Origin: Janthinobacterium sp. J1-1
GTDB taxonomy: Bacteria > Pseudomonadota > Gammaproteobacteria > Burkholderiales > Burkholderiaceae_D
NCBI RefSeq assembly: GCF_030944405.1
Contig: NZ_CP132339.1
Location: 3,100,001-3,164,000 of the forward strand
Length of the DNA: 64,000 nt
Direction: 5' to 3'
Positions within the stretch are counted from its first letter, which is position 1, and every line of letters starts with the position of its first letter. Below are positions 4,472 to 56,440 of the stretch, in pieces. The notes beneath the pieces are model-generated. The model worked only from the letters and a program-made list of their open reading frames with translations. It was not told where the DNA came from and searched no databases. The position numbers and the translations under genes were made by a program.

Positions 4472-6805
4472 ATGGTTGAAATCGAAATAGACGGCAAAAA
4501 AGTCGAAGTCCCTGCTGGTAGCATGGTGATGGACGCCGCCAACAAATTGGGAACCTACATTCCGCACTTCTGCTATCACAAGAAATTGTCGATCGCAGCG
4601 AACTGCCGCATGTGCCTGGTCGAAGTGGAAAAGGCGCCCAAGCCTTTGCCCGCTTGTGCGACCCCGGTCAGCGCCGGCATGATCGTGCGCTCCGCCAGCG
4701 ACAAGGCTGTGCAGGCGCAGAAGTCCGTGATGGAATTCCTGTTGATTAACCACCCGCTCGATTGCCCTATCTGCGATCAGGGCGGCGAATGCCAGTTGCA
4801 GGATCTGGCAGTCGGCTACGGCAAGAGCGAATCGCGCTACCAGGAAGACAAGCGCGTCGTGAAACCGAAGGAAGCCGGCCCGCTGGTCTCGATGCAAGAG
4901 ATGGCGCGCTGCATCCAGTGCACCCGCTGCGTACGCTTTGGCCAGGAAGTGGCCGGCGTGATGGAGCTGGGCATGATCGGCCGCGGCGAACACTCGGAAA
5001 TCGTGTCCTTCGTGGGCCAGACGGTCGACTCCGAACTGTCGGGCAACATGATCGACCTGTGCCCGGTGGGTGCCTTGACCTCGAAGCCGTTCCGCTACAG
5101 CGCCCGTACCTGGGAACTGTCGCGCCGCAAATCGGTCAGCCCGCATGACGGCCTGGGCGCCAACCTGATCGTGCAAGTGAAAGCTGGCAAGGTCAAGCGC
5201 GTGCTGCCGCTGGAAAACGACGCCGTCAACGAATGCTGGATCTCGGACAAGGACCGTTTCTCGTATGAAGCGCTGGACAGTGCCGAACGCCTGACCTCGC
5301 CGATGCTGAAACAGGGCAACGAGTGGAAAGAAGTCGATTGGCAAACCGCGCTGGAATACGTGGCGCACGGCCTGAAAAACATCAAGCACGAACATGGCGC
5401 CGACGCCATCGCCGCGCTGGCCACGCCGCACTCGACCGTGGAAGAACTGGTCTTGCTGCAAAAAGTCGTCCACGGTCTCGGTTCCGAGCACGTCGACTTC
5501 CGCCTGCGCCAGCTTGACTTCGCGCTCGACGCGAGTGTGAAACCTTGGCTGGGCATGCCGATCAACGACTTTGGCCAGATCAAGCGCGCCTTCGTCATCG
5601 GCTCCTTCCTGCGCAAGGACCATCCGCTGCTGGCCACCCGCCTGCGCGCCTCGGTCAAGAGCGGCGCCAAGCTGTCGATCCTGCACGCTTCCGACGATGA
5701 TCAGCTGATCACCATCGCCAACAAGATGATCGTTGCGCCGAGCGACTGGCTGGCCGCCTTGTCGGAAGTGGTGGTTGCCGTGGCAAAAGCCAAGGACATC
5801 GCCGCTCCTGCCGGTTTCGACGCCGTCAACGCGTCGGACGTGGCCGTCAATATCGCCGCCAGCCTGATGGCCGGCGACCATGGCGCCATCCTGCTGGGCA
5901 ATGCGGCAACGCAACACCCGCAAGCGTCGCAACTGCATGCTGCCGCGCAATGGATCGCCGAACAGACGGGCGCCACCCTGGGTTACCTGACGGAAGCGGC
6001 CAACACGGTCGGCGCTCACTTGGTCGCCAAGCCGCGCACCAATGTGCAAGCCGCGTTTGCCGTACCGAAAAAAGCCTACGTGCTGCTGCACGCCGAGCCA
6101 GAATTAGATGCCGCCAATCCACAGGCGGCCCGCGCCGCCCTGGACGGCGCCGACATGGTCGTGGCCATGTCCGCCTTCAAGCACGGCATGGATTACGCCG
6201 ATGTCTTGCTGCCGATCGCACCGTTCGCCGAAACCTCGGGCACCTTCGTGAACTGCGAAGGCCGCGCGCAAAGTTTCAATGGCACCGTGAAACCGCTGGC
6301 GGAAACCCGTCCGGCCTGGAAAGTGCTGCGCGTCCTGGGCAATATCCTCGGCCTGCCAGGTTTCGACTACGACACCTCGGAAGCGATCCGCGACGAAGCG
6401 TTTGGCGCCGGCGTGACCGACCTGTCGGCACAGCTGAACAATATCGCCAAGAACGCCCCGGAAGCGGCCGCTTACGCACCGGCCTCGCCTGCGCTGCAAC
6501 GCATCGCCGACGTGCCGATCTATTTCGCCGACGCACTGGTACGCCGCTCCGAGCCTTTGCTGCGCACGGTCGACGGCGCCACGCCGCAAGCCCATTTGTC
6601 GCCAGCACTGGCCGCCAAGCTGGGCATCAAGGCCGGCGACAAGGTCAAGGTCGCGCAGGGCGCGGGCAGCGCCATCCTGGTGGCGGCCATCCATGCCGGC
6701 CTGCCAGCCAATGTGGTGAAAGTGTCGGCGGCGCATGCCTCGACCGCTCGCCTGGGCGGCATGTTCGGTGACATCACAGTTGAAACAGCAGAGGGGAACA
6801 TCTGA
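4472..6805 (+). CDS. nuoG: NADH-quinone oxidoreductase subunit G
   Basis: 777-residue 75-kDa-type subunit, the electron wire of the peripheral arm. The N-terminal ferredoxin-like domain carries 2Fe-2S N1b (C34, C45, C48, C62). The N5 4Fe-4S ligands follow (H94, C98, C101, C107), then the N4 motif [11 protein letters not shown] with a distal DLCPVGAL. The remaining two thirds is the molybdopterin-oxidoreductase-like domain without cofactor. A ribosome site (AGGT) lies about 12 nt upstream. The stop overlaps the nuoH start by one base (TGATG). Confidence 0.97.
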
Positions 6806-36543: not shown

Positions 36544-37242
36544 GTAGGGCAGGTCGAACAGCAAAACTTCGGCATCTTCGGCATTTGCCAGCGTTACTTT
36601 GGCTTCCTGCGTCAGTTTCAGCGCATCGCCGGCTTTCAAGGGTGTGCCGTTGACCACCAGGCTGCCGCGGATCAGGTGCACATACGCGGTGCGGCCTTCG
36701 TCCAGGGCATGTTCCAGCGCATCGCCTTCTTTCATGATGCTGGCGTAGATCGAGGCGTTCTGGTGGATCAGCACCGAACCCTGGCGCCCGTCGCTGGAAG
36801 CAACCAGGCGCAGCTTGCCCTGTTTGCTTTCCGGTGCGAAGTGTTTCTCTTCGTAGCTGGGGGCGATGCCCGTCACGTTCGGCTGGATCCAGATCTGCAG
36901 GAAGTGCAGGCCATCCGTTTGCGAATGGTTGAACTCGCTGTGACGCACACCGCTGCCGGCGCTCATGCGCTGTACATCGCCGTAGTGCAGGACCGAGCCG
37001 GTACCCATGCTGTCTTTATGCTCGAGCGCGCCGTCCAGCACATACGAGATGATTTCCATGTCGCGGTGACCGTGGGTACCGAAACCCTGGCCCGGCGTGA
37101 CCCTGTCTTCATTGATCACCAGCAATGGACCAAAACCCATGTGTTTCGGATCGTGGTAGCTGCCGAAAGAAAAGCTGTGGTGGGAATTGAGCCAGCCGTG
37201 GTTTGCGGCGCCGCGTTCTTCGCTATGACGGATTTGTAACAT
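36541..37242 (-). CDS. Pirin-family protein (YhaK-like bicupin)
   Basis: 233 residues. The N-terminal cupin has the metal-binding pattern GFGTHGHRDMEIISYVLDG, with later SGVRHSEFNHS, giving the His/His/His/Glu site of pirins; some family members act as quercetin dioxygenases. The C-terminal half is the second, metal-free cupin. A ribosome site (ATGGAG) precedes the ATG. Divergent from a LysR-type regulator 174 nt away, its likely controller. The stop codon lies in the target duplication of the MITE-like repeat. Confidence 0.92.
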   Translation of the reverse strand: MLQIRHSEERGAANHGWLNSHHSFSFGSYHDPKHMGFGPLLVINEDRVTPGQGFGTHGHRDMEIISYVLDGALEHKDSMGTGSVLHYGDVQRMSAGSGVRHSEFNHSQTDGLHFLQIWIQPNVTGIAPSYEEKHFAPESKQGKLRLVASSDGRQGSVLIHQNASIYASIMKEGDALEHALDEGRTAYVHLIRGSLVVNGTPLKAGDALKLTQEAKVTLANAEDAEVLLFDLPY

Positions 37243-37416
37243 GGTGAGACTCCATTTCTTCGTAGGTTAATGTGCGATAATTTCGAAGGACCGTTGCCCG
37301 CCTTTGTGTTCCTTGCCGGGCTGACTTCGTCTTTCGTGATGCGATGAAGAGAGTATAGGCCCGTCATACGAGAAAGAAAAACGGAAAAATTACCGCTCTA
37401 TGATCGAAAAAATCGA

Positions 37417-50589: not shown

Positions 50590-52590
50590 ATGTCGAATTA
50601 CGCTCCTGAGTCCACCCGCCGCCGCCTGTTGCAACTGTTCGCCGGTGCCCCCATGCTGCCGCTTGCCGGCCTGACCGGTGTCAGCGCCTTGCTGTCCGGC
50701 TGCGGCGGCAGCTCGGATAACGACCTGCCTCCGGTGACCACGCCAGTCACGCCCACCGCGACGTTTACCACGGCCGAATTCACCGGCATGGCCGCACCAG
50801 CCGCCAGTTCGCCTGCCGCACTGGCCACCACCACCGTCGGCTCCAAGCTCAAGGTCAATTTCAGCGATGGCAGCAGCAACAGCTATAACCTGGCGTACCA
50901 GCCATTCTTCCTGACCGGTGACCGCGTGCCGGATGGCAAGGGCGGCACCGTGATCGCGGGCGGCTATGTCGACATCAAGAACCAGCCCATCATCGACAGT
51001 TCGGTGGCAGGCAGGGAGCGCCAGTTCTTCTCGGACTCGCCGGACGGCAGCTCGATGCTGACGGTGGCCAACCCTACCGTGACCGGCATCAAGGGCAAGC
51101 CGGTGTTTGCCGTGGTGCAGTTTGAATACAACTCGCTGAACCAGGCCGGCGCGTCCACCTACGGCACCTTGCCGTCGCCGATCGCCGTGCTGACCCTGGA
51201 CCAGGACCAGACCACCGGCAAGCTGTCGATGGTGAAATACCACAATGTCGATACCTCGTCCGTCAAGGGCCTGTGGATCACCTGCGGCGCCAGCCTGTCA
51301 CCATGGAACACCCACCTGTCGAGCGAAGAGTACGAGCCCGATGCCTTCGACCAGGGCCTGGGTGGCCAGACCCTGGCCGTGCTCAAGGAGTTCAGCAAGA
51401 ACGTCTTCGGCAACACCGCCACCGCCAATCCGTACGACTACGGCCACCTGCCAGAGGTTTCCGTGAATCCGGACGGCACCGGCAGCATCAAGAAGCACTA
51501 CTGCCTGGGCCGCTACTCGCGCGAACTGGTGCAGGTCATGCCCGACCAGCGCACCATCCTGGGCGGCGATGATTACACCAATGGCGGCCTGTTCATGTTC
51601 GTGGCCGACAAGGCCGCCGACCTGGCGGCAGGCGGCACCCTGTACGTCGCCAAATACACGACGCAGCTGACCGAGACCACCACCGGCAAGCTGCAATGGG
51701 TCAAGCTGGGCCGTGGCACGCACGCCGAGATCAAGGCGCTGGTCGACGGCGGCATCAAGGCCACCGACATCATGGATTCGACCCTGACCGATCCGAACGA
51801 CACCAGCTACACGAAGATCGTGCTGAACAAGAAAACCGCCTGGGTCCGCGTCAAGGCCGGCCAGGAAAAAGCCGCCGCCTTCCTGGAAACCCACCGCTAC
51901 GCAGCCCTCAAGGGCGGCAGCATGGCTTTCACCAAGAACGAAGGCACGACGGTCAACGCCAAGGACAAGATCGCCTATTCGGCCTACGCCAATATCCAGG
52001 ACTCGATGGTCGAGGGCGGTTCGGGCTACGTGGCCGGCCACAACGTCAAGTTCAAGAAACTGGTGGCGGGCGGCGTCGTGTCGCACAAGCTGGCCGGTGG
52101 CCAGAAGGATGACACCGGCGCGGCCATCGACAGCGAATGGGTACCGAGCGAGTCGACCGTGCTGCTGGCAGGCGAAGACATCGCCGGCGACGCCCTGGGC
52201 AACACCGCCAATCCGGACAAGATCGCCAGCCCCGACAACCTGAAGTTCTCGGAAAAACTGCGCACCCTGTTTATCGGCGAAGACAGCGGCAACCACCTGA
52301 ACAACTTCCTGTGGGGCTACAACGTCGACACCAAGAAACTGGAACGCCTGCTGTCGTGCCCGGCCGGCGCGGAATCGACCGGCCTGCACGCGGTCGACGA
52401 AATCAATGGCTGGACCTACGTGATGAGCAACTTCCAGCACCCGGGCGACGAGTGGAACCGCTTCCCGACCTTGCCATCGGCGCTGAAGGACCAGATCAAC
52501 ATCATGATCAACACCAACTACAACAACAAGTTCAGTGGCGCGGTCGGCTACCTGACGGCGGAGTTGTCGCAGGTGAAACTGTCGAAATAA
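50590..52590 (+). CDS. PhoX/DUF839-family protein, Tat-exported
   Basis: 666 residues. The N-terminus STRRRLLQLF followed by a hydrophobic stretch ending LLSGCGG is a twin-arginine signal with a possible lipobox. The PhoX-like propeller is indicated by C232 in ITCGASLSPWNTHLSSEEYEPDAF, EVSVNPDGTGSIKKHYCLGRYSRE and GGDDYTNGGLFMFVADKAADL. It is a distant paralogue of the phoX at 33548, but the region around its cysteine diverges and no convincing Pho box lies upstream. Phosphatase activity is likely but less certain. A terminator follows. Confidence 0.87.
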   Translation: MSNYAPESTRRRLLQLFAGAPMLPLAGLTGVSALLSGCGGSSDNDLPPVTTPVTPTATFTTAEFTGMAAPAASSPAALATTTVGSKLKVNFSDGSSNSYNLAYQPFFLTGDRVPDGKGGTVIAGGYVDIKNQPIIDSSVAGRERQFFSDSPDGSSMLTVANPTVTGIKGKPVFAVVQFEYNSLNQAGASTYGTLPSPIAVLTLDQDQTTGKLSMVKYHNVDTSSVKGLWITCGASLSPWNTHLSSEEYEPDAFDQGLGGQTLAVLKEFSKNVFGNTATANPYDYGHLPEVSVNPDGTGSIKKHYCLGRYSRELVQVMPDQRTILGGDDYTNGGLFMFVADKAADLAAGGTLYVAKYTTQLTETTTGKLQWVKLGRGTHAEIKALVDGGIKATDIMDSTLTDPNDTSYTKIVLNKKTAWVRVKAGQEKAAAFLETHRYAALKGGSMAFTKNEGTTVNAKDKIAYSAYANIQDSMVEGGSGYVAGHNVKFKKLVAGGVVSHKLAGGQKDDTGAAIDSEWVPSESTVLLAGEDIAGDALGNTANPDKIASPDNLKFSEKLRTLFIGEDSGNHLNNFLWGYNVDTKKLERLLSCPAGAESTGLHAVDEINGWTYVMSNFQHPGDEWNRFPTLPSALKDQINIMINTNYNNKFSGAVGYLTAELSQVKLSK

Positions 52591-52629
52591 GCTGCCGCAT
52601 CTGATGCCGGCGTGAACCGGCAGGCAAGT

Positions 52630-52668
52630 AAAAAAGCGCCCGTCTTCGCAAGGAGACGGGCGCTTTGC
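52630..52668. terminator. Terminator after the second PhoX-family gene
   Basis: AAAGCGCCCGTCT and AGACGGGCGCTTT form a 13-bp perfect stem around an 8-nt loop. The T-run is short on the plus strand (three T) and longer on the minus strand (six T). Confidence 0.85.
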
Positions 52669-52792
52669 TGTATGCACGCCGCTGGCTTTTTTGTCGCGGC
52701 GGCTCAGGTTGGCGATCTTTGTTTGGATTTTTGAAACTTTATCGGGTCCTGGCGGTCAAATTACTGTTGATGTTTTGGTTTGACTGACAGCA

Positions 52793-54535
52793 ATGGCATA
52801 TAAAAACAATGCTGCCTTTGGCGGCAACTGCAAGATGTCGGCAAGCATGGCCGCCCTGGTGGCGTCCGGTGAACCGAGCTCTGCCTTGAGAGCGCGGTTG
52901 GGGCCAGCGGCAGGCAAAAAAAGTGGCGTTTCTGTATTGAGTTATCACGTCTTTGTCCGCTGCAGCACGACCGAAGCAACATCGATTGCCAGCATACCGT
53001 TGGCAAAAGGCAGGGGCGAGGTAATGACGGCAATTGTGCCGTCCGCGAGCCTGTCGGACTTTATCGCTGATGAGCGGGTAACGCGGGTATCGGCACCCAA
53101 GCGTCTGTGGCCACTGATGGACATTGCATCGCCATTGATCGGTGTGCCGCAATTTGCAGACAAGTACAAGGTGTCAGGAAAAGGCGTCATTATTGGCATC
53201 GTCGATACCGGCATGGATATCAGCCATGAAGCCTTTGCGGGGCGGGTGTTGAAGATATGGGATCAGGAAATCGCGGGGCCGGGACCAGGAACAGGCTTCA
53301 GCAAGCTTGGAACGATACTGACCGGTGAGGCCATGGCGGCCAGCAAAGACGTGCATGGACATGGCACGCATGTCGCCGGCATCGCAGGCGGTGCCGGATC
53401 AATCTACGGCGGCATCGCGCCAGAGACGTGCTACCTGATCGTCAAGACCAACTTCCAGACCAGCGCCGTCGTGGAAGGGGTGCGCTGGATATTCAGCGAG
53501 GCAGAAAAACTCGGCCGTGCCTGCGTGGTCAACCTGAGTCTGGGTGGACACTTTGGCAGCCATGATGGCGAGGACGACACCAGTATCGGCATCAGCGACG
53601 AATGCAGGGAGGGGCGCCTGGTGGTTGCGTCTGCCGGCAATGAGGGCCGCGCGCCGATACATGCCCGTAAAGAGGTCGGGGCAGGGCCGCCGACACGGTT
53701 TGAGCTGGCAGTGAAACCCGGCACGTCTCCTGCGGGGGCGCCGCCATTGATACTGAATGGCTGGTATGGCGGTGCGGCCAGGTGTGAAACAAGGTTGCAC
53801 AGTCCCACTGGCAAAAAAACGTCATGGCAAGGATTGATCGGCAAGGACCCAGCCGCAAAATCTTACTATCTTGGAAATGACAAGGTCGTCATTTCCACGC
53901 CGGACGCACTGGCGCCCAATGGTGACAGGCAGTTTTTGATGGAAATCTTTGGCGATGCTGATGCGATCCAGGAAGGAACATGGGTGCTGGAAGTACGGCT
54001 GAAATCGGGCAAGGCGAGCGCTGTTGATGTATGGCTGGTGCTCGATCCGGAGGGGCCTGGTGCGGCGGAATTCATGGCGCCGGTCCGTGATACCTTGATC
54101 GGCGCGCCGGGAGCGGCGCATGAAGCGGTGACCGTTGCTTCCTACACCAGTCGCAATCAATGGAATGACCTGTCCGGAGCATCCGTGTCGGTCGGATTGG
54201 CGCTGCATTCGGTGTCTGAATTCAGCAGCCCCGGACCGCTGCGCGGTGGCAGGTTGAAACCTGACGTCACCGCGCCAGGAGCGATGATTGCTTCCTGCTC
54301 CTCATCTGACTCATCGGTAGACCCCAACGATCTTGTTGCAGGAAACTATAGAATGATGGCGGGCACCAGCATGGCGGCACCGGTGGTGACCGGGTTGCTG
54401 GCCTTGTTTTTGGAAAGCCATCCAAAAGCAACACCGAGCGTGGCAAAAGAGTGGCTTAAAAAAAATTCGTGCGTGCCGCATGCCGACTCCGGGACGCATG
54501 ATATAAAGTGGGGCTATGGCCTAGTCAAGGTGTAA
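52793..54535 (+). CDS. S8 (subtilisin-type) serine protease with propeptide-like N-terminus
   Basis: 580 residues. The catalytic triad is complete: D138 (IGIVDTGMDISH), H190 (GHGTHVAG) and S526 (AGTSMAAP). A large insert (about 255-430) separates the second and third motifs, as in fervidolysin- or C5a-peptidase-like members. There is no signal peptide. Residues about 47-112 have the beta-alpha-beta pattern of an I9-like propeptide (SYHVFVRCS...MTAIVPSASLSDFIADERVTRVSAPKRL). GC is visibly lower than the surroundings and the ribosome site is weak. The next gene starts 3 nt after the stop. Likely an acquired cytoplasmic or non-classically exported protease. Confidence 0.9.
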   Translation: MAYKNNAAFGGNCKMSASMAALVASGEPSSALRARLGPAAGKKSGVSVLSYHVFVRCSTTEATSIASIPLAKGRGEVMTAIVPSASLSDFIADERVTRVSAPKRLWPLMDIASPLIGVPQFADKYKVSGKGVIIGIVDTGMDISHEAFAGRVLKIWDQEIAGPGPGTGFSKLGTILTGEAMAASKDVHGHGTHVAGIAGGAGSIYGGIAPETCYLIVKTNFQTSAVVEGVRWIFSEAEKLGRACVVNLSLGGHFGSHDGEDDTSIGISDECREGRLVVASAGNEGRAPIHARKEVGAGPPTRFELAVKPGTSPAGAPPLILNGWYGGAARCETRLHSPTGKKTSWQGLIGKDPAAKSYYLGNDKVVISTPDALAPNGDRQFLMEIFGDADAIQEGTWVLEVRLKSGKASAVDVWLVLDPEGPGAAEFMAPVRDTLIGAPGAAHEAVTVASYTSRNQWNDLSGASVSVGLALHSVSEFSSPGPLRGGRLKPDVTAPGAMIASCSSSDSSVDPNDLVAGNYRMMAGTSMAAPVVTGLLALFLESHPKATPSVAKEWLKKNSCVPHADSGTHDIKWGYGLVKV

Positions 54536-54538
54536 ATC

Positions 54539-54820
54539 ATGAACATTGCAAAGTTTGATGCCGCTCTGAACTCGCGGTTGGTTCAGCAGCGCGATCAGGA
54601 GGTCAATGTTTCCGTGCGCTTACGTTCCCAACTGACGCCTGAGGAAGTGACGCGGCTGCAAGCGATGGGGCTGGATGATGCGGATACAAGACGGCGAGTG
54701 CTGTTTGGCACCTTGTCGCCCAAGTCCTTGGCCTTGTTGGCAACGCTGGACAAGGTCGCACAATTGTCCCTGGTGCAGCAGATGACACCTCATTTAGTTC
54801 ACGGAAAGATCGGCATCTAG
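54539..54820 (+). CDS. Small partner of the S8 protease, possible propeptide-like inhibitor
   Basis: 93 residues, soluble, no cysteine and no signal peptide. Residues about 21-88 (VNVSVRLRSQLTPEEVTRLQAMG...RRVLFGTLSPKSLALLATLDKVAQLSL) have the same strand-helix-strand-helix-strand rhythm as the protease's own residues 47-112. Both end in SLxxxxAxxxxV-type patterns. It starts 3 nt after the protease stop, so the two are almost certainly co-translated. By analogy with I9 propeptides acting in trans, an inhibitor, chaperone or immunity role is inferred. I do not recognise a named family. Confidence 0.65.
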   Translation: MNIAKFDAALNSRLVQQRDQEVNVSVRLRSQLTPEEVTRLQAMGLDDADTRRRVLFGTLSPKSLALLATLDKVAQLSLVQQMTPHLVHGKIGI

Positions 54821-54961
54821 CGTCCCGAGCTTATCTCGGAGGCATGGCTGGCAGGACGGTGCGTGTGATATTGCCGCGCCATGTACTGGCTTGGCCGCAA
54901 TTTCTTCCAGCGCGCGGCTTTCCTGTATATTTGCGCCCCTGTCCGTTTTGCTTGCGCCCTC

Positions 54962-56440
54962 ATGTCCCCCGCCATCCTGTTTTCCGTCGTCCTCGCCTAT
55001 TTCCTGATCCTGCTGGCCGTCGCTTGGCGCACCTCGCGCCATGCCACCAATGACAGCTTTTTTATCGGTAACAAGGACAGCAACTGGATGCTGGTCGCGT
55101 TCGGCATGGTGGGCACGACGCTCACGGGCGTGACGTTTATCAGCGTGCCGGGTGCGGTGGGGCGCGACGGTTTTGGCTATGTGCAGCTGATGATCGGCTA
55201 TGTGCTGGGCTACCTGGCCATCACGTTTATTCTGCTGCCGCTGTATTACCGGCTGCAACTGACGTCGATTTACCGCTACCTGGAGCTGCGGCTGGGGCGG
55301 CGCTCCTACCAGAGCGGGGCGGCGTTTTTTATCCTGTCGCGGCTGCTGGGGGCGACGGCGAGGCTGTATCTGGTGGTCAATATCCTGCAGACGACCATCC
55401 TCGACAGCCTGGGCGTGCCGTTCTGGGCCACCGCCTCGGTGGTGCTGCTGCTGATTCTGCTGTACACCTACGAGGGTGGCGTGAAAACCATCGTCTGGAC
55501 CGATACCTTGCAGACGGCCTGCATGCTGGCCGGCCTGGTGATCTGCAGCGTGTTTTTGCTGCGCGAGATGGATCTTTCCGTGATCGACAGCCTCGAGCGC
55601 ATGCGCGCGCAGGGGCTGGCGCGCATGTTCACGCTGGACCCGGACAGCCCGGCCTATGTGTGGAAGCATATCGTGGCCGGCATGTTCATCACGATCGCGA
55701 TGACGGGCATGGACCAGGAGATGATGCAGAAGAATATCTCGGTGCGCACCCTGCGTGATTCTCAGAAAAACATGCTGAGCCTGACGGTGGTGCTGACCGG
55801 CGTGCTGCTGCTGTTTTTGTTCCTCGGTGGCCTGCTGCATTTGTATGCGCCTTTGGCGGGCGTGACGGCGACCGGAGATAAACTGTTTCCGGCCGTGGTG
55901 CTGGGGCATTTCCCGGCGGTTGTGCAGCTGATCTTTTTCATCGCCCTGATTTCCGCCCTGTTCCCCAGCGTCGACGGCGCGCTGACGGCGCTGACCTCGA
56001 CTTTTTGCATCGATATCCTGGGCCTGCAGCGCAGGAGCGATTTGCATCCTGCCACGCAGATGCGCTGGCGCCGCCGCGTGCACCTGGGGTTTGCCGCGCT
56101 GTTCCTGCTCCTGATCATGGCGTTCAAGTGGATGGACAGCCCCAGCATGATAGTCGTGATCCTGAAACTGGCCAGCTATACCTATGGGCCGCTGCTGGGA
56201 CTGTTCGCATTTGGCCTGCTCAGCCGGCGCGGCGTGCGCGACCGCTGGGTGCCGGTGGTGGCGGTGGCCGGGCCGCTGTTGTGCGCGCTGGTCGAGCAGG
56301 AGCAGGCGCTGCTGTTCGCGCATTACCGCATCGGCCTGGAACTGCTGATATTGAACGGTGGACTGGTGCTGGCCGGGCTGTTTTTGATCTCCACGCCGGC
56401 GCAAAAGGGTGGGGTGCAGTTGCCAAAACAAGACTATTGA
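54962..56440 (+). CDS. Sodium:solute symporter family transporter
   Basis: 492 residues with about 13 helices (SSS family, LeuT fold). DSFFIGNKDSNWMLVAFGMVGTTLTGVTFISVPGAVG and LGATARLYLVVNILQTTI are typical, as is the late ALISALFPSVDGALTALTSTFCIDI, which carries the family's sodium-site serine/threonine region. Start placed at 54962 (MSPAILFSVV); an ATG at 54881 would add 27 residues. The solute is unknown. Followed by sppA 55 nt later. Confidence 0.88.
   Translation: MSPAILFSVVLAYFLILLAVAWRTSRHATNDSFFIGNKDSNWMLVAFGMVGTTLTGVTFISVPGAVGRDGFGYVQLMIGYVLGYLAITFILLPLYYRLQLTSIYRYLELRLGRRSYQSGAAFFILSRLLGATARLYLVVNILQTTILDSLGVPFWATASVVLLLILLYTYEGGVKTIVWTDTLQTACMLAGLVICSVFLLREMDLSVIDSLERMRAQGLARMFTLDPDSPAYVWKHIVAGMFITIAMTGMDQEMMQKNISVRTLRDSQKNMLSLTVVLTGVLLLFLFLGGLLHLYAPLAGVTATGDKLFPAVVLGHFPAVVQLIFFIALISALFPSVDGALTALTSTFCIDILGLQRRSDLHPATQMRWRRRVHLGFAALFLLLIMAFKWMDSPSMIVVILKLASYTYGPLLGLFAFGLLSRRGVRDRWVPVVAVAGPLLCALVEQEQALLFAHYRIGLELLILNGGLVLAGLFLISTPAQKGGVQLPKQDY

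Follow-up and report, generated by a model that had tools for sequence, protein, structure and literature searches.

Introduction

Streptopain (SpeB) and Spi are a bacterial example of a protease gene adjoined by the gene of a stand-alone propeptide-like inhibitor. SpeB is a cysteine protease of family C10, and its fold is unrelated to that of the proteins considered here, which are encoded in a window of 64,000 nucleotides from Janthinobacterium sp. J1-1 (contig NZ_CP132339.1, positions 3,100,001 to 3,164,000). In this window, the gene of a subtilisin-type (S8) protease is followed by a small gene encoding a protein of 93 residues. This two-gene unit is the subject of the present study.

By sequence, the closest solved protein to the window protease is CspB, a germination protease of Clostridium, which has an inserted jellyroll domain where the sequence alignment places an insert in the window protease. 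The propeptide of CspB remains bound, and its tail fills the active site. When supplied in trans, it restores folding and blocks active-site labelling, and the block is lost without the last three residues (PMC3567191). A stand-alone copy of the propeptide is not mentioned in the available part of that paper, and the window protease scores below the cut-off of the NCBIfam CspBA model (NF040809; 88.3 bits, cut-off 1250).

SUB1-ProM of Plasmodium is a free protein with the propeptide fold, which is encoded beside subtilisin genes and inhibits its cognate protease. POIA1, the yeast proteinase B inhibitor, Arabidopsis SPI-1 and TgMIC5 are also stand-alone I9-type proteins, and all are eukaryotic in the text of PMC6993865 that was available. 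In the same text, POIA1, the yeast inhibitor and SPI-1 have no significant sequence similarity to propeptides. In contrast to these three proteins, the family of the window small protein has homology to the cognate propeptide that is detectable at the family level. Furthermore, SUB1-ProM belongs to a eukaryotic parasite, whereas the window unit is bacterial, lacks signal peptides, has relatives in nine phyla or candidate phyla and contains a CspB-like protease. Protealysin and emfourin of Serratia resemble the window unit in that an intracellular bacterial protease and a small inhibitor share one operon. However, protealysin is a metalloprotease, and emfourin, which is called the prototype of a new inhibitor family in a title cited by PMC9505478, is not a freed propeptide.

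In this study, we propose that the unit probably pairs a CspB-like S8 protease of the cytosol with a paralogue of its propeptide that is encoded by a gene of its own and would act as the cognate inhibitor in trans and possibly also as a folding helper.

Results

The protease and the small gene in the window

The window protease matched Pfam Peptidase_S8 (PF00082) at an E-value of 7.8e-36 (124.3 bits, above the cut-off of 21.8). Among PDB sequences, the best match was CspB (4i0w_B, 1.9e-25, over residues 118-541). The second Pfam S8 stretch starts at residue 436, and the CspB alignment, which is one of sequence only, continues through the insert (Table 1). The catalytic Asp, His and Ser and the oxyanion-hole Asn were present in all 81 proteases examined; 75 were recognized by pattern, and the six pattern misses were then confirmed by eye. 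No strongly hydrophobic stretch was found in the first 60 residues of the window protease, where the best 15-residue Kyte-Doolittle mean (0.89) lies in strand 1 of the propeptide. No signal peptide was seen in the protease, which would be cytosolic. Its self-cleavage is predicted near L108/M109 from the alignment to CspB. A complete subtilisin-type protease without a signal peptide had been described in the original prediction, which was made from the letters of the window, and this description was confirmed.

The small gene had been placed 3 nt after the protease gene, and the coordinates, frames and gap agree with this (TAA, ATC, ATG from the protease stop to the start codon of the small gene). 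The core of the Shine-Dalgarno-like sequence, AAGGT, is conserved upstream of the small gene in all four Oxalobacteraceae loci that were compared.

Co-occurrence of the two genes

One genome per species was scanned with a 22-row protease alignment, and the best 80 of 351 loci were analyzed. These loci are mostly from Nostocales and are not independent; L041 and L042 belong to the same strain, on separate contigs. In 68 of the 80 loci, the flank that was fetched contained the small gene, downstream of the protease gene and in the same orientation. It overlapped the protease gene in one locus; the gap was 1-100 nt in 12 loci, 101-350 nt in 35, 351-1000 nt in 13 and more than 1 kb in seven. Thus, the small gene lies within 1 kb of an S8 gene in 61 of the 80 loci, and a distribution mostly away from S8 genes was not seen. 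For the 12 remaining loci, 11 genomes could be searched. In ten of these, the small gene lies at another place, and in one of the ten a stop codon interrupts the matched stretch.

In 194 genomes of Cyanobacteriota, a sample drawn around genome G298, the small gene (E <1e-25) was detected in nine and the protease in ten, and all nine were among the ten. The two genes are adjacent in five of these nine genomes; in the others they are 7.3 kb, 0.5 Mb or 1.46 Mb apart or on another contig. The small gene was found in two of 294 genomes of Planctomycetota, one being the centre of the sample, and adjoins the protease gene in both. Among 299 genomes of Pseudomonadota, it was detected at 1e-4 only in the window's own genome. 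A single-sequence search of 294 genomes of the window's family, by which divergent pairs such as that of Janthinobacterium locus L032 would be missed, gave two genomes. The second of these (G089) is apparently the strain from which locus L003 comes, since it has the same small protein.

The origins of the loci cover Pseudomonadota, Cyanobacteriota, Verrucomicrobiota, Planctomycetota, Nitrospirota, Bipolaricaulota, Poribacteria, KSB1 and Actinomycetota. A database search yielded at least 704 clusters of the small-protein family at E<=1e-6. In the 120 clusters that were listed, no Pfam domain is assigned; the named proteins are called 'hypothetical' or 'uncharacterized', apart from one 'adhesin AidA'. 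In KSB1, one contig (L104, 1951-8238, minus strand) has two S8 proteins in tandem, both with signal peptides and each abutting a divergent relative of the small gene, and one of these small relatives carries a lipoprotein-type signal. The C-terminal stretch of the two S8 proteins resembles sorting domains. The KSB1 signals were judged by eye; an exported protease with an exported partner is a further hint at the inhibitor function that had been predicted.

Homology of the small proteins to the protease propeptides

A profile was built from 58 small proteins, namely that of the window, 12 from databases and 45 of the 68 copies at the loci, and was compared with a profile of 81 propeptides. The score was 76.6 (E 1.5e-13, probability 98) over 85 columns, which include the N-terminal helix. 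As controls, 30 column shuffles gave scores of at most 14.0, the reversed profile gave 16.1, and five other protease segments gave 9-14. A second profile comparison, against a 15-row propeptide alignment, gave an E-value of 5.3e-10. Furthermore, a hidden Markov model (HMM) of 11 small proteins matched 78 of the 80 neighbouring proteases at E<=0.1 (72 at 0.01 and 55 at 0.001), at about residues 57-110. When 11 whole genomes were searched with the 58-row profile, nothing was matched below 1e-3 except the small gene and, in eight genomes, the propeptide of the protease of about 580 residues. The window small protein, itself one of the 11 seeds, matches the family HMM at E 1.2e-29. Its identity to relatives outside its family is 20-35%.

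When 31 small proteins and 31 propeptides were placed in one tree, a single branch parted the two classes (support 97/92; 98% of bootstrap trees). The input was the window and 30 of the 68 paired loci, with few columns, several long branches and midpoint rooting only. The single split fits one duplication followed by joint inheritance. The ratio of nonsynonymous to synonymous substitutions (dN/dS) was 0.12-0.42 in 14 hand-picked close pairs, and purifying selection acts in these close pairs.

At the presumed helix-capping position, Ser is found in both the propeptide and the small protein in 62 of the 68 loci. Both partners depart from Ser in four loci (three of one Oxalobacteraceae lineage and one of Nitrospira), and the propeptide alone departs in two. 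The joint change in two lineages is only suggestive of covariation and is a weak hint at the proposed inhibition.

Predicted fold of the small protein

The predicted secondary structure of the small protein is helix 8-16, strand 22-28, helix 34-43, strand 54-59, helix 61-68 and strand 73-78. The AlphaFold2 model has a predicted local distance difference test score (pLDDT) of 77 and a predicted template modelling score (pTM) of 0.58. When the model was compared with known structures by VIA-align, each of the best 29 rows was either a propeptide or pro-enzyme chain of an S8 protease or the inhibitor POIA1. The fold predicted by the model is thus the alpha/beta fold of I9-type propeptides and not an unrelated one, as had been expected for a propeptide-like inhibitor. 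In the structural alignment with CspB (4i0w_A), residues 1-87 of the model correspond to residues 7-96 of the chain, and the alignment ends with residue 87 of the model opposite residue 96 of the chain, the P1 position.

In an NCBIfam scan of the 58 family members, only scattered matches were obtained (best 0.0045, at most two of the 58 members per family). A search of PDB chain sequences with the small-protein profile had a channel/riboflavin-synthase fusion protein as its sole matches (E 0.015 and 0.4), which were judged to be due to chance.

Table 1. Coordinates in the window of the two genes and of the features discussed in the text
Feature	Coordinates	Strand	Basis or remark
Strong inverted repeat, 13 pairs, terminator-like, in the interval between the PhoX and protease genes	52633..52666	.	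Listed as minus-strand terminator
S8 (subtilisin-type) protease, 580 residues, CspB-like by sequence	52793..54535	+	PF00082; PDB sequence match CspB 4i0w_B
N-terminal propeptide (about residues 1-108), a short helix followed by an I9-like core at about 47-108	52793..53116	+	Alignment
Catalytic Asp138	53204..53206	+	DTGMD motif
Catalytic His190	53360..53362	+	GHGTH motif
Oxyanion-hole Asn283	53639..53641	+	AGNEG motif
Insertion separating the catalytic Asn and Ser segments, at the position of the CspB jellyroll	53666..54097	+	Pfam, CspB alignment
Catalytic Ser526	54368..54370	+	GTSMA motif
AAGGTG, Shine-Dalgarno-like, formed by the last two protease codons, 6 nt 5' of the small-gene ATG	54527..54532	+	
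Predicted stand-alone propeptide-like protein, 93 residues	54539..54820	+	AlphaFold2, structural matches, family homology
C-terminal tail of the small protein, residues 79-93	54773..54817	+	Putative equivalent of the propeptide tail entering the active-site cleft (structural alignment)

Genomic setting of the unit

The GC content is 58% in the protease gene and 55% in the small gene. At third codon positions (GC3) it is 64% and 67%, respectively, against 83-88% in four neighbouring genes; the lower GC of the pair, which had been noticed earlier, is therefore correct. The terminator-like repeat upstream of the protease gene may also terminate the PhoX unit on the plus strand.

The site between PhoX and an SSF symporter (52590-54962 of the window) appears to be variable in the genus (L099, L100 and L101). 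Its contents differ in three siblings: one has an AbiEi/AbiEii type IV toxin-antitoxin pair, as identified by Pfam, and the other two hold other open reading frames (ORFs), as judged by eye only. PhoX itself was found in only nine of 40 genomes of the genus. The atypical GC3 and the variable site suggest that the window pair was recently acquired, and local mobility is plausible in this genus alone.

One short direct-repeat family (two copies) and two inverted pairs of repeats were detected, none of which flank the unit as paired ends. The window yielded a single tRNA gene, for tRNA-Arg (37167-37264), at a distance of 15 kb from the pair. A palindrome search found nothing, and a promoter scan gave one promoter where 1.4 were expected. 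No relative was found in 50,697 phage records with the protease as the query, nor in viral contigs by three single-protein scans, which would show close relatives only. One of 72,556 plasmid records has a relative; it is a 3.1-Mb replicon of the actinobacterium Embleya, which carries the pair.

Pfam was applied to 16 of 112 listed neighbour ORFs, from seven loci. The neighbours scanned at cyanobacterial loci L008 and L016 are housekeeping genes (glgC, dnaJ, peptide deformylase and a histidine kinase), and those at L003, L032 and L021 encode regulators, a transporter and metabolic or TPR proteins. Six ORFs of L004, L005 and L021 had no Pfam match. The ORFs without a match that lie upstream of the pair in Pseudoduganella (L004, 4819-5721) and Duganella (L005, 4150-5970) may be spurious frames. 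Defence families were not found by Pfam among the 16 ORFs, to which PADLOC was not applied, and the idea of a defence island was set aside on the basis of these Pfam scans.

Discussion

We consider that the small protein would bind the face of the catalytic domain that is used by the propeptide, and that its C-terminal tail would occupy the substrate cleft like a cleaved product. By analogy, it would work like SUB1-ProM, POIA1 and TgMIC5 as they are described in the available text of PMC6993865. Such a protein would be a reusable cognate inhibitor in trans, not tied to folding, and the intracellular protease could be kept silent after, or independently of, the removal of its built-in propeptide. 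The small protein may additionally assist the folding of the protease.

Several observations weigh against the reading of the small protein as a cognate inhibitor derived from the propeptide. The first group concerns the homology. When only Oxalobacteraceae sequences were used (24 small proteins and 10 propeptides), hhalign gave a weak score of 19.3, with an E-value of 0.0085 and the register as expected, and 30 column shuffles reached 17.0 at most. The HMM of 11 small proteins did not match the window's own protease, and those of L032 and L039 were also unmatched. A second match, to the propeptide, was seen in only four of 10 genomes from other or divergent lineages, in two of them at E 0.008. 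The window small protein had no match to Pfam Inhibitor_I9 (PF05922) and, although 14 of the 58 relatives did (best E 0.015), the cut-off was not reached. The confidence of the structural model is moderate, and it is lowest in the tail (pLDDT of about 52 over residues 81-93, modelled alone). The resemblance that had been claimed between residues 21-88 of the small protein and residues 47-112 of the protease is thus borne out in the wide family and weak within the window's family. For the window's own pair, homology is therefore supported through the wide family, in which the window protein has a firm place.

The second group concerns the linkage. The small gene is sometimes unlinked from the protease gene. 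Genome G299 has the protease, at a partly masked locus, and the small gene was not found in a search of the genome; G405 likewise has the protease, with no small gene found in the search of Cyanobacteriota genomes. KSB1 contig L103 has two close small copies (11-448 and 4639-4959), and no S8 gene was seen near either. The first copy is at the contig end; for the other, the sequence covered is about 4.6 kb on the upstream side and 3 kb on the downstream side. Furthermore, G400, a cyanobacterial genome of 2.3 Mb without this protease, has a weak relative of the small gene (E 4.5e-4; L087, 1208-1537). This weak relative possibly belongs to another stand-alone propeptide family.

A stronger form of inhibition can be imagined, in which a cytosolic protease capable of suicide is held by the freed propeptide, and the loss or degradation of the small protein, not propeptide cleavage, commits the cell to proteolysis. 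We regard this form as unlikely. If true, it would be a proteolytic toxin-antitoxin or programmed-death switch across phyla, which would be notable for filamentous cyanobacteria.

The small protein might instead be mainly a folding helper, that is, a propeptide chaperone in trans with little inhibition. Propeptides of subtilases act as chaperones, and that of CspB can restore folding when supplied in trans, according to the available part of PMC3567191. The homologous stretch covers the N-terminal helix of the propeptide. However, the proteases retain their own propeptide (78 of 80 by the HMM), and a second chaperone is therefore not obviously needed. In addition, the stand-alone eukaryotic I9 proteins named in the available text of PMC6993865 are inhibitors. 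A role mainly in folding is thus rather improbable.

In the original prediction, the inhibitor was embedded in a mobile module of the toxin/immunity or defence type. The part concerning a stand-alone propeptide or inhibitor is well supported by the fold, the homology and the co-occurrence. In the other part, an attack would release the protease, or the protease would be delivered to rivals, with the small protein as the antidote. Such a role has been proposed for operons of a protease and an inhibitor, namely protealysin and emfourin (PMC9505478, as far as its available part goes). The PADLOC model 'subtilase' matches the window protease at 1.5e-29, and the window copy has a low GC3 and lies in a variable site that holds the AbiEi/AbiEii pair in one sibling genome. 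In contrast, no delivery or sensor domain was found in the protease by Pfam and NCBIfam scans, and its score against the NCBIfam IteS equivalog (the ietAS/IteS anti-phage protease) was 13.5 bits, below the cut-off of 900. The scanned neighbours are housekeeping genes at the two cyanobacterial loci, and no defence family is among the 16 ORFs scanned; no relative was found in the phage records or the three single-protein viral scans, and only the Embleya replicon was found among the plasmid records. Moreover, the two genes are frequently unlinked, whereas toxin-antitoxin and effector-immunity pairs are expected to be constantly linked. A toxin or defence module is therefore a poor explanation, and we give it little credence.

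That the small protein is a decoy or activator, which competes for the propeptide site on the zymogen, displaces the built-in propeptide and speeds activation, is very improbable: the fold and the presumed site are shared with the propeptide, but the tail of the small protein, since it reaches the P1 position, would itself fill the cleft, and we know of no precedent for such a role.

Trans inhibition by a freed propeptide paralogue thus remains our preferred reading. A bacterial precedent or an earlier description of the pair was not found in the open-access literature, most subscription papers being outside the scope of the search. The pairing is apparently widespread and unnamed. The stand-alone I9-type inhibitors named in the available text of PMC6993865 are eukaryotic, whereas the family described here is bacterial, comprises at least 704 clusters and is paired with a cognate protease. 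The proposed function would give a role to a protein that is mostly called 'hypothetical' in cyanobacteria, and it would show the birth of an inhibitor from a propeptide through gene duplication. It would also make it possible to test how bacteria control their cytosolic subtilases. The pair probably lets bacteria hold a dangerous enzyme off.
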